From an uncultured Clostridia bacterium (GTDB taxonomy: Bacteria; Bacillota; Clostridia; Christensenellales; Pumilibacteraceae): a stretch of 64,000 nt of DNA. The translations under genes and the position numbers were made by a program. The DNA is taken from assembly GCA_948440265.1 (NCBI GenBank), contig CAOJOK010000004.1, positions 1 through 64,000 of the forward strand, in the 5' to 3' direction. The notes below the pieces were generated by a model. That model did not search any database and was not told the origin of the DNA. It saw nothing but the letters and a program-made list of their open reading frames with translations. This document shows positions 35,090-43,497 of this stretch, piece after piece. Position 1 is the first letter of the stretch, and every line of letters starts with the position of its first letter.

Positions 35090-35638
35090 TTATACGGGAG
35101 CGAAATCGCAGAGTCTGCCGCGATAAATAATCTCGCCTTTTTTCATATTCAGAAACTCTACGGGACGGACCACTTCGCCGAACTCGTCTTTTTCCAAAAT
35201 GTCGAACTTGTCCAAGAGTTCTTTGATAAACTCCGAACAATAATAGCAGTTTGCCTTGCGGCGGTGAATACCCAATTTGGCAAGAAACAGTCCGAGATAG
35301 TTATAATGATATTTCTTCCTGTCCACATACATATTTTTTATGTACTCGTTTATCTCGGCATATTTATCCTTGCTCACAGTCAGACGGATAACCACGACTT
35401 CGCTGTTTTTAAACCGCTTCATAGAACCGAAATGCACGGACTCTTTCACAAATCCGCCGATAAAGGGGTTGCTGGGGAAAATTCTGCCGAAAGAATACAT
35501 CTCGTTCAAGTCGTCTTCCAGACTTATGGACGAATGGGCATACTTATCTCCCGTAACCTTTCTTATTATCTTGGAAACAATAGAATCGGTTGCGCTGACA
35601 ACTATGTAAATATGTTTTTTCTTTTCTTTCTTTTCCAC
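35090..35638 (-). CDS. Permuted papain-fold (YiiX/NlpC-P60-like) hydrolase
   Basis: 182 residues, no signal peptide. The likely catalytic His35 (KYAHSSISL) comes before the likely Cys134 (CYYCSEFIKEL), the order typical of permuted papain-like YiiX/YebB proteins. These act on amide or ester bonds; substrate unknown. The frame stays open to an ATG at 35749, but a consensus promoter (35705-35734) lies inside that extension. The GTG at 35638 with AAGGATAGG upstream is therefore the better start. Very Lys-rich N-terminus (EKKEKKKH). Confidence 0.75.
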   Translation of the reverse strand: MEKKEKKKHIYIVVSATDSIVSKIIRKVTGDKYAHSSISLEDDLNEMYSFGRIFPSNPFIGGFVKESVHFGSMKRFKNSEVVVIRLTVSKDKYAEINEYIKNMYVDRKKYHYNYLGLFLAKLGIHRRKANCYYCSEFIKELLDKFDILEKDEFGEVVRPVEFLNMKKGEIIYRGRLCDFAPV

Positions 35639-35704
35639 TTTCCTATCCTTAACGCCACCGAAATCGGGTCGCGACTCATATAAGAATTTAACCTCGTATT
35701 GTTT

Positions 35705-35734
35705 ATTATAAACGGCAAACCGCTCGTTTGTCAA
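35705..35734 (-). promoter_or_regulatory. Promoter of the permuted papain-like gene
   Basis: Minus strand TTGACA (35729-35734) and TATAAT (35705-35710), 18-bp spacer. Start near 35698, about 60 nt before the GTG at 35638. Confidence 0.8.
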
Positions 35735-35844
35735 ATAACTTATGGGCATATAACGGAAAAACAGACAAAAATTTCGTAAAAACGTATATTTTCCCCTCGT
35801 TTTCGCCTAATACCATTTATGCTTCGGCGGTTTGAATTATGCTC

Positions 35845-39388: not shown

Positions 39389-39424
39389 TAAAGAGCGAAG
39401 AAATAAACTTCTTCGCTCTTTTCA
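39389..39424. terminator. Bidirectional terminator, gltA / TIR-like gene
   Basis: Stem AAAGAGCGAAGAA / TTCTTCGCTCTTT with a 6-nt loop and T run. It lies between gltA (ends 39386) and the minus gene ending at 39453. Confidence 0.85.
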
Positions 39425-39452: not shown

Positions 39453-40802
39453 TTATTCTTCCACGAACTGTCCCTGTTTGTCCAGATTCTCTTTTATGCG
39501 AAGCAGCAGTCTGTTTGTGTACTCCGTCTTTTGTTTACGCTTTGCTTCATCCTTCCACTTCTTATACTGTGCGGCGATAAACGACATTGACGAGCTGTCG
39601 TTTTTGAGAAGGCACTGTTCGCTGAAAGCGATGAGATATTCCTGCTGCAACTTATCCGACATATATACGTTTGTGGGGAACTCCCGTTTGAAATTGTCCC
39701 AAAGTATGAAGCGGTTTTCCACCGAATTTTCCAGATTTTTTGCATACTCTTCGTTGTTTCCGATAACGTCTTTATAAAGGTGAGCAAGGTCGTTATAAAT
39801 ATACGACCGCAGAAGATATATCAGACAGTCGTTGCTGTCTTTGAATCTTTCTTCAAGCTTATCTATAAGCTTTATGGTGTCTTTGAAATATTTTAGAGCA
39901 TTGTTTTTGCAGTCGTCTTTTCTCTGCTCCGTCAAGCCCGCATCTTTTAAATACAGCAGATTTATCAGCCCCAAAATATCATTGCAGAGAATATCGATAA
40001 TATCGTCCAATACGCTGGGCTGTTTGCCGCCGCCGTTTGAGAAACTGACGGTTTCCTTTCTTCTATTCAAAATACGCTGTATTCTCTGCTCTGCCATAAA
40101 CTCGTCTGCCAACAGCGCGTTTGCCATATCGCCGCTCTTTAAGAATACGTCGACGTAAGTCTTGGCAAACGACACTATTTCACCCGTTCTGCCGCGACCC
40201 GAAATCCTGTCGAGACTGTCGCGGAATCGCTGATTGTCGTTATAATAATATGCGGCAAGACAGCCGATTACTATGTATTCTTCAAACTCCGTACTGTTAT
40301 AACAGTCCTTGTCGCTTTCCAAATCGCGGCTTATGTACTGCCAATCGTCGATTATTTTAAAGTAGTTGACGGGCAGCTCTTTATTCAGGTTGTTTTCAAA
40401 AAGCCTGTATACTTCGTCCGCCAATTCGTCATCGCTCTTTTCTCCGCCGTCATCGCTCTTTTTGCGAGTCAATTCTTCCGCCCAAACGCCTTCCAAATCG
40501 CTCGGCAAGTCGCTTTTATGCTTGTCTATCAAGAATACGTGTATGCGTTTCATTCGCTTATAGCCGACAAGGTATCCCCACTCGTACATAAGGTTGGTGC
40601 TGAAACCTATGTTCTTATAGTTTTCGACAAGCAGTATGGCTTTGTCGCAAGACTTCATCTGTTCTATTATCTGATTGCCGACAAACATCTGATTGGGGGC
40701 GCCGCCGCCCATAACGATATTGTGGCCGTTTTCTTTGAATTTGCTCTCTAATTTTTGCGCCAATGTCTCGTTGCCGCCCCATCCGATAAAAATATTCGAC
40801 AT
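39453..40802 (-). CDS. TIR-like domain protein with large helical C-terminal region
   Basis: 449 residues. Residues 1-~100 resemble a bacterial TIR-like (predicted nucleotide-binding) domain: IFIGWGGNETLAQKLESKF, a loop with GGGAP, CDKAILLVENYKN, then the conserved helix STNLMYEWGYLVG whose Glu74 sits where the catalytic Glu of NADase TIR domains is expected. Residues ~130-449 are helical and charged, without a family I recognise; a TPR-like sensor or adaptor is possible. TIR domains in bacteria often cleave NAD+ or make signalling nucleotides in antiphage defence. Start: AGGAGG about 8 nt before the ATG. It lies 28 bp after a LOG-family gene on the same strand, sharing its promoter. Confidence 0.8.
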   Translation of the reverse strand: MSNIFIGWGGNETLAQKLESKFKENGHNIVMGGGAPNQMFVGNQIIEQMKSCDKAILLVENYKNIGFSTNLMYEWGYLVGYKRMKRIHVFLIDKHKSDLPSDLEGVWAEELTRKKSDDGGEKSDDELADEVYRLFENNLNKELPVNYFKIIDDWQYISRDLESDKDCYNSTEFEEYIVIGCLAAYYYNDNQRFRDSLDRISGRGRTGEIVSFAKTYVDVFLKSGDMANALLADEFMAEQRIQRILNRRKETVSFSNGGGKQPSVLDDIIDILCNDILGLINLLYLKDAGLTEQRKDDCKNNALKYFKDTIKLIDKLEERFKDSNDCLIYLLRSYIYNDLAHLYKDVIGNNEEYAKNLENSVENRFILWDNFKREFPTNVYMSDKLQQEYLIAFSEQCLLKNDSSSMSFIAAQYKKWKDEAKRKQKTEYTNRLLLRIKENLDKQGQFVEE

Positions 40803-40830
40803 TGTATTTTCCTCCTATCTTTACTTTTCG

Positions 40831-41406
40831 TCAATGCTTTTTTCTGTGTTTGTCGGGGTCTTTCGGACTGCTGTCCAAAAGCCTGACGACTTCTTCCGCG
40901 CAGTCGGCAGTAAAGTATAACTCATTCTTATCCACAGTTACAAAATGTTCTTCGCAAGCCTTTAAGATAAACTTTTTCAAATCGTCAAAGTATCCGAAAG
41001 CATTATATACGACTACCGTTTTATTGTGCCGACCGAACATCTTTAAAGACAGCACTTCAAAAAATTCTTCCAATGTGCCTATGCCGCCGGGAAGAATTAC
41101 AAATGCGTCCGACCCCATTATCATTTCTTTTTTTCTTTCGGCGATATCAACCGTCAACGTGATTTTATCGGCATCGAAAAAAGGCGTATCGTAACCTTCG
41201 GTTTCGAAAAACTCGGGTACGATGCCGTGAACATAGCCCTTTTGCGATTTTGCTCCGCGTGCGACTGCTCCCATAAGACCCGTTCCGCCCGCGCCGAAAA
41301 CCAGCATATGTCCCTTTTCGACAAGCGCGGCGCCGAGTTTTTCCGCCGCCTTGATATATTTATCGTCGATATGCGCGCTTGCCGCGCCGAATACGCAAAC
41401 ATTCAT
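40831..41406 (-). CDS. LOG family protein (cytokinin riboside 5'-monophosphate phosphoribohydrolase type)
   Basis: 191 residues, normal LOG length. Rossmann-like fold that hydrolyses N-glycosidic bonds of nucleoside monophosphates. Motifs: GAGGTGLMGAVARG (~38-51), Arg91-Lys92 and Met95 in ERKKEMIM, and the signature PGGIGTLEE (~106-114) with catalytic Glu. It is first of a two-gene operon with the TIR-like gene (28-bp gap). LOG proteins belong to the SLOG superfamily, and the SLOG domain of Thoeris ThsA binds a TIR-made signal, which makes the pairing noteworthy. Start: ATG at 41406, AGGAG about 9 nt upstream; a TTG at 41415 is too close. Confidence 0.9.
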   Translation of the reverse strand: MNVCVFGAASAHIDDKYIKAAEKLGAALVEKGHMLVFGAGGTGLMGAVARGAKSQKGYVHGIVPEFFETEGYDTPFFDADKITLTVDIAERKKEMIMGSDAFVILPGGIGTLEEFFEVLSLKMFGRHNKTVVVYNAFGYFDDLKKFILKACEEHFVTVDKNELYFTADCAEEVVRLLDSSPKDPDKHRKKH

Positions 41407-41436
41407 CTTTAACAACTCCTACTGTTTACGCTTTTT

Positions 41437-41465
41437 ATTATAGCAGATTTTTTAAGATTTGTCAA
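41437..41465 (-). promoter_or_regulatory. Consensus promoter of the LOG-TIR-like operon
   Basis: Minus strand TTGACA (41460-41465) and TATAAT (41437-41442), 17-bp spacer: a perfect match to the sigma-A consensus. It overlaps the last codons of the upstream glycosyltransferase gene and gives a leader of about 25 nt. Confidence 0.85.
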
Positions 41466-42861: not shown

Positions 42862-43497
42862 CTATTTTACGTTAAAAGTAGTATTCTGAATTTTATAATA
42901 GCTGCCGCAGACGTCGCACTTTCCTATCGTTTCCATTCCTTCGTGTACGAAGCCGCAATTGCAGTCGTCGACAAGCTGCATAGGCTCTCCGCACGCCGAG
43001 CAGCGGTTAGGCATAACGTAAATGTTTTCCCGTTTGCCGTCCATATAGCGCACGCGAATATAGAGTCTGTTTTCGAATTTTTCGCACTTTTTGCACCAGA
43101 AGATACCGTTGAACGCTATCGTCCCTTCTATGCCTGCGGCTATCGACCACTTCTTTTTGCTCAACGCTATCTTTTCCGTAACGGGCGGCTGCATAAGTTT
43201 TTGATATGCGGTGTTCTTTTCCAAATCTTCCGCCTTAAACATAGGCACACAGCCTTCGAATAAGTCGTAATTGATATTGGTCAGATATTCGGCGTGGTTC
43301 AGATAGAAATTGTAATGCGCCGACTTCGGCTTTTTGGCTTCTATCGCCACCATAAGGGTCATTATTTTCTGCATAGTCTTTTCGTCCGTCAAGAGCGCGA
43401 CGGCGTCTTTAAGCGACTGCAAATCGCTTCCCGCACCGACCTTGAAACTCTTTTGGTTCAGACAATCGTGACATTTCATAGTAATAGTTTTAGACAT
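42862..43497 (-). CDS. Hypothetical protein with multiple zinc-ribbon-like CxxC motifs
   Basis: 211 residues, soluble. CxxC pairs occur at the N-terminus (CHDC), in the middle (CKKC), then CSAC, CNCG and CDVCG in the last 50 residues, enough for two or more zinc ribbons. The central region (~25-120) is helical. No family recognised; a nucleic-acid or protein-binding role is suggested only by the zinc ribbons. Start: ATG at 43497, with AAAGGAGC upstream at somewhat long spacing. Promoter at 43547-43575. Confidence 0.7.
   Translation of the reverse strand: MSKTITMKCHDCLNQKSFKVGAGSDLQSLKDAVALLTDEKTMQKIMTLMVAIEAKKPKSAHYNFYLNHAEYLTNINYDLFEGCVPMFKAEDLEKNTAYQKLMQPPVTEKIALSKKKWSIAAGIEGTIAFNGIFWCKKCEKFENRLYIRVRYMDGKRENIYVMPNRCSACGEPMQLVDDCNCGFVHEGMETIGKCDVCGSYYKIQNTTFNVK

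Follow-up and report, generated by a model that had tools for sequence, protein, structure and literature searches.

A LOG-family gene and a predicted TIR–TPR effector gene form an operon in an uncultured Clostridia bacterium, within a family whose enzyme partners are exchanged

In the 64,000-nucleotide stretch of DNA that we analyzed (the window), we observe a two-gene operon on the minus strand, with a promoter of its own, that encodes a LOG-family protein and a 449-residue protein joining an N-terminal TIR domain to a TPR-like helical tail. In relatives of this TIR–TPR protein, the layout is retained but a deaminase or an acetyltransferase occupies the position of LOG. The mechanism that we favor, ahead of simple co-expression and with a probability of roughly 45%, is metabolic coupling, in which a triggered NADase with a TPR-like sensor would be tuned by an interchangeable small-molecule enzyme. 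The basis of this reading is the families of the two proteins, their fold, a predicted catalytic glutamate and the operon layout, together with the replacement of LOG among the relatives.

The features of the operon are collected in Table 1. A first-pass annotation of this DNA had described a consensus promoter, a complete LOG gene carrying PGGIGTLEE and a two-gene operon, and all three descriptions hold. The promoter matches the consensus at every position and extends into the 3′ end of the glycosyltransferase gene upstream. The LOG reading frame is complete, with its best start at the ATG at 41406 and its end at 40831, and the spacing to the TIR gene is 28 bp, with an AGGAGG ribosome site ahead of the TIR ATG at 40802. 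Downstream, a hairpin whose 70-nt stretch has an energy of −20.5 kcal/mol separates the pair from a convergent citrate synthase gene. This hairpin was absent from the list of a terminator scan; it is probably a terminator common to both convergent genes.

Table 1. Positions of the operon features in the window
Feature	Position	Strand	Description
Promoter TTGACA-17-TATAAT	41437..41465	−	12/12 consensus match, TG ahead of −10
LOG-family gene	40831..41406	−	191 aa; GGTGLMG and PGGIGTLEE; predicted nucleoside 5′-monophosphate phosphoribohydrolase
TIR–TPR protein gene	39453..40802	−	449 aa
TIR domain	40371..40802	−	residues 1–144, PF10137; predicted catalytic E74 in NLMYEWGY; invariant W8, G10, N70, G76, D102
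TPR-like helical superhelix	39456..40370	−	residues 145–449, C-terminal; predicted sensor; invariant E388, near-invariant Y389
Hairpin 3′ of TIR gene	about 39391..39420	−	13 bp, between convergent genes; probable shared terminator

The upstream protein is assigned to the LOG family on sequence criteria, namely the PGGxGTxxE motif and a near full-length match to the TIGR00730 profile (2.2e-41; 141.6 bits against a cut-off of 96.35). It also matches PF03641 (1.5e-31) and PF18306, the 'SLOG cluster4' family, and scores 107.7 bits with the equivalog NF058542, below the 300-bit cut-off of that profile. The protein is a single domain of 191 residues that carries the enzyme motif and no effector domain. 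By analogy with its family, the predicted enzyme would release the base from a nucleoside 5′-monophosphate.

The N-terminal part of the 449-residue protein matches PF10137 (CAP12-PCTIR_TIR) over residues 3–110 (1.7e-9; 38.1 bits against a cut-off of 24.7), as do all 46 of the relatives scanned at 0.001. An AlphaFold model built with 46 aligned sequences (pLDDT 89.6, pTM 0.85) places a TIR fold in residues 1–144, followed by an entirely helical region between about residues 147 and 443. Both results uphold the earlier suggestion of a TIR-like fold, and the proposed division into about 100 TIR-like and about 320 helical residues fits the model. In structure comparisons, residues 1–144 resemble the TIRs of RPS4, RUN1, SPARTA and SfSTING with VIA Z scores of 11–13, nearly tied with the scores of 11–12 for the nucleotide N-glycosidases DNPH1, Rcl, MilB and BcmB. 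We prefer a TIR over a DNPH1/MilB assignment because the best PDB match of the sequence profile is Cap12 (7un8, 9e-7). Across 46 sequences, F5, W8, G10, A15, G32, G33, Q48, N70, E74, G76, D102 and E388 are invariant, with N70, E74, G76 and D102 unchanged across phyla, and the profile alignment puts the E74 motif on the FEFG of SfSTING/Cap12. We take E74 to be catalytic, a role carried over from what is known of TIR-STING. Judged by its sequence, the protein is a true TIR, of the kind found in Cap12 and Pycsar effectors, and it probably cleaves NAD+, as TIR-STING/Cap12 do.

The C-terminal tail folds confidently on its own (pLDDT 93.2) and resembles the TPR superhelices of LGN, APPBP2, Rap and NprR in a PDB structure search (Z 12–14). 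A search with the tail alone returned generic TPR and 14-3-3-like matches at Z 11–14, which lies within or near the range that helical proteins reach through a common arrangement, so that 'TPR-like' describes a shape. Among the matches listed for this all-helical tail, there is no STING-like structure or domain. The region was correctly called helical at first; it was also called unrecognized, a description that the structure search replaces with a TPR-like superhelix, which we predict to be a sensor.

Relatives of the TIR–TPR protein were sought among near relatives, the order, the class and a genome-contig collection, which together gave 75 loci in 57 clusters at 90% identity. At the order level, 24 of 396 genomes contain a match (E 0.001). 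The genome-contig collection yielded 48 loci with an alignment-based query and no match with the single TIR protein as query, and additional family and phylum searches added one near-copy (L099, like L054) and one weak match. Records with relatives include those labeled Actinomycetota, Bacteroidota, Spirochaetota and Planctomycetota; many records are MAGs, in which single odd taxa may reflect binning errors. The plasmid, phage and viral collections searched contain zero TIR–TPR relatives. The patchy distribution within the order is consistent with an accessory system. In two loci (L042 and L045), distant short TIR-like proteins of 245–263 residues follow a gene for a 378-residue protein that by eye resembles a type I restriction specificity subunit.

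Tight same-strand pairs, with gaps mostly from −20 to +50, recur across the family. Assigning partner families by Pfam (MFS by reading the sequence), we find that the same-strand gene directly preceding the TIR gene encodes a CAT-type acetyltransferase in 24 clusters and a guanine/guanosine-deaminase-like protein in six, with LOG as the partner in the window only (1 of 57 clusters). A nucleoside hydrolase is the upstream partner in L092 and lies downstream of a CAT–TIR pair in L072. Single or double cases include asparaginase-like (L068) and PNP (L073) genes downstream of the TIR gene, an ArgG-like gene upstream in L063 and L067, an MFS gene ahead of it in L064 and an HAD gene ahead of it in L089 (82 bp), and some family members are solo. 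The first-pass annotation had proposed a functional link between LOG and the TIR-like protein; what stands is a TIR recurrently and tightly paired with small-molecule enzymes, among which LOG is one of several alternatives.

Several individual loci show unusual arrangements. At L066 (1612–5068), the TIR–TPR gene sits between genes resembling agmatine deiminase (aguA) and N-carbamoylputrescine amidase (aguB, a C–N hydrolase), touching the former and overlapping the latter by 4 bases. In Propionibacteriaceae, it overlaps an argininosuccinate-synthase-like gene, by 4 bases at the end of that gene in L063 (4619–7290) and by 8 bases in the longest open reading frames in L067. The order at L072 (2231–4884) is CAT, TIR–TPR, nucleoside hydrolase, which brings two partner types into one apparent operon. 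At L089 (2340–3623), a second, different protein that is TIR-like by eye (FLSYHSSKVELVEHLAKYL) is encoded immediately ahead of the HAD gene that lies upstream of TIR–TPR.

Among known structures, the deaminase is similar to those acting on guanine and guanosine (1tiy, 7dbf) and the CAT partner to true chloramphenicol acetyltransferases (2i9d). All 24 CATs retain the catalytic H..DG and all six deaminases retain HGE together with PCxxC, and this retention of active-site motifs argues for working enzymes. Distances among the CATs correlate with those among their TIRs (Mantel r = 0.77, with 0 of 2000 permutations as high and mean identities of ∼40% each), which fits long co-inheritance, although host relatedness can add to such a correlation. 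For the deaminase, with only six pairs, 94 of 2000 permutations were as high. Reciprocal searches place homologs of the deaminase and the nucleoside hydrolase mostly without TIR–TPR nearby, and the partners look like ordinary enzymes that TIR–TPR has repeatedly joined. The LOG protein, the deaminase, the nucleoside hydrolase and PNP all act on nucleosides, nucleotides or bases, a suggestive pattern that we noticed post hoc and for which CAT, the commonest partner, is no obvious fit.

The possibility that LOG–TIR pairs are conserved, which the first-pass annotation proposed to survey near defense genes, found no support in the sample: the adjacency occurs in this genome only, with no second LOG–TIR pair in the other 56 clusters. 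A search of 61 genomes with LOG returned six good homologs, 0 of 6 beside a TIR of this family. In the TIR tree, all CAT pairs fall in a fully supported clade of 31 (24 of 31 rows), and the LOG pair belongs to another fully supported clade, of 11, with six deaminase pairs and four members that have no tight partner. Since the LOG-linked TIR lies inside this deaminase clade, LOG either replaced a deaminase or both were acquired separately. In a genome of the same genus (G001, a sister species), the TIR is 42% identical, a deaminase-like gene lies 15 bp upstream of it and LOG is absent. There, the deaminase–TIR pair is on a different contig from the glycosyltransferase gene, which is followed by other genes, and the citrate synthase gene, near a contig end, has no TIR beside it in the available sequence. 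Because the surroundings of these two flanking genes differ in G001, the LOG–TIR operon is probably a unit that occupies a variable site. The LOG-specific hypothesis thus fails the conservation test in this sample, yet it points to enzyme swapping around one TIR–TPR effector.

By Pfam, the neighbors in the window are citrate synthase, a gyrase/topoisomerase A subunit, an RNA uracil-methyltransferase, a glycosyltransferase and genes without assignment. Comparing 119 flanking genes of the relatives with PADLOC, we found that each family listed matched 1 of 119, including a methyltransferase and a reverse transcriptase. A defense-island setting was therefore dropped, there being no enrichment among the flanking genes and housekeeping neighbors in the window, and the expected neighborhood of defense genes finds no support in either. 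What speaks for antiphage defense, which is unproven, is the TIR family together with the patchy distribution. Two intact proteins of the window (42862–43497 and 35090–35749) have no Pfam match at 1e-5; a close homolog of the former lies next to the glycosyltransferase of the same-genus genome (L108, 680–1312).

In the coupling mechanism, the TIR–TPR effector, probably NAD+-cleaving, would be held off until a trigger, which we guess to be phage infection or another stress, is sensed by its TPR-like tail. The co-expressed enzyme, here LOG, would tune the system by making, removing or altering a ligand or product, and our guess is that the small molecule it handles links the two proteins. Against coupling, several members are solo, which indicates that the partner is not obligatory, and the partners include proteins other than nucleotide enzymes (CAT, ArgG, AguA/AguB, asparaginase, MFS, HAD). 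A more specific proposal, which we regard as unlikely, is a modular immune family in which the exchangeable enzyme (CAT, guanine/guanosine deaminase, LOG or nucleoside hydrolase) would tailor or erase the TIR product or ligand to give acetylated, deaminated or base-free ADP-ribose-type signals. The main rival, possible if doubtful, is that TIR–TPR acts alone and that its gene, often without a promoter of its own, settles behind expressed metabolic genes, the upstream gene serving for expression only. The solo members, the unrelated partners (aguA/aguB-like in L066, argG-like in L063, MFS in L064) and the deaminase and nucleoside-hydrolase homologs that usually occur without TIR are what such a history would leave. 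Its difficulty lies in the persistence of the CAT partner through most of a clade that has diverged deeply and whose CAT and TIR distances correlate, in the reappearance of nucleoside hydrolases from a single subfamily on two branches far apart (L072, L092) and in the promoter that the LOG and TIR genes of the window have in common, which is their own and not that of a host operon.

The remaining rivals are less probable. A guard or decoy arrangement, in which the tail is bound to the partner enzyme and responds once a phage or toxin interferes with that enzyme, has rather poor odds: the modeled superhelix would suit protein or peptide binding and both the partner swapping and the correlated CAT–TIR divergence accord with it, but one conserved tail would need to recognize several unrelated folds, and the kept active sites favor catalysis over a dead decoy. 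We consider very unlikely a Thoeris-like relay in which LOG senses or destroys a cyclic ADP-ribose signal produced by the TIR. The activators of SIR2–SLOG ThsA effectors are cADPR isomers (PMC11204291). The membership of LOG in the SLOG superfamily and its PF18306 match are in keeping with such a relay; its single-domain, enzyme-like architecture is not, nor is its replacement by a deaminase in the closest relatives or by CAT elsewhere, neither of which is an SLOG protein. Least probable of all is an assignment of the N-terminal domain to the nucleotide N-glycosidases of the DNPH1/MilB type, with a metabolic rather than an immune role for the operon. Its tied structural scores, the housekeeping neighbors and the several companion enzymes from nucleoside metabolism would agree with that assignment, whereas the sequence profiles point to PF10137 in every relative scanned and, in the PDB, to Cap12 instead of DNPH1 or MilB, and the patchy distribution suits an accessory system.

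Should the pairing prove functional, the wiring of a single TIR effector to several unrelated small-molecule enzymes would represent a new control of NAD+-consuming effectors and could uncover new nucleotide-like signals. We found no description of a TIR–TPR/enzyme pairing in the open-access literature searched. Because the CAT pairs are common and have long been inherited together, they open the pairing to direct testing, and in gut Clostridia some genes annotated as 'chloramphenicol acetyltransferase' may be parts of TIR–TPR systems.

Among known systems, the LOG cytokinin riboside 5′-monophosphate phosphoribohydrolases (TIGR00730) share the near full-length match and PGGxGTxxE with the window protein, whose solved relatives include YvdD (1t35) and At2g37210 (2a33). 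Unlike the known LOG phosphoribohydrolases, it is co-transcribed with a TIR gene and falls below the NF058542 cut-off. Thoeris likewise sets a TIR gene beside an SLOG-superfamily protein. The operon differs from it in that LOG lacks a SIR2 or effector domain, the TIR is of the PF10137 family with a TPR-like tail and the partner is exchangeable. PF10137 is the sole TIR family matched, the ThsB-type TIR (PF08937) being unmatched, and with no effector-bearing ThsA and with glycosyltransferase and citrate synthase as the adjacent genes, the operon is judged not to be Thoeris, in agreement with the initial judgment. CBASS was rejected for want of an adjacent CD-NTase (the neighbors are LOG, glycosyltransferase and citrate synthase), and Pycsar for want of a PycC cyclase among the adjacent genes. 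Weak similarity to the PADLOC candidate defense proteins PDC-S35 appears along the catalytic stretch of the TIR in 39 of 46 members, and the P0001 match covers a short segment of about 40 residues at a weak 3e-4. TIR-STING/Cap12 of CBASS and PycTIR of Pycsar belong to the same Pfam TIR family, align at the FExG glutamate motif and provide the best PDB match (7un8), and 24 of 46 members show a weak match to the PycTIR profile. The window TIR differs from Cap12 and PycTIR in that no cyclase gene is adjacent to it, and it carries a TPR-like tail where Cap12 has STING and a metabolic enzyme as its partner.
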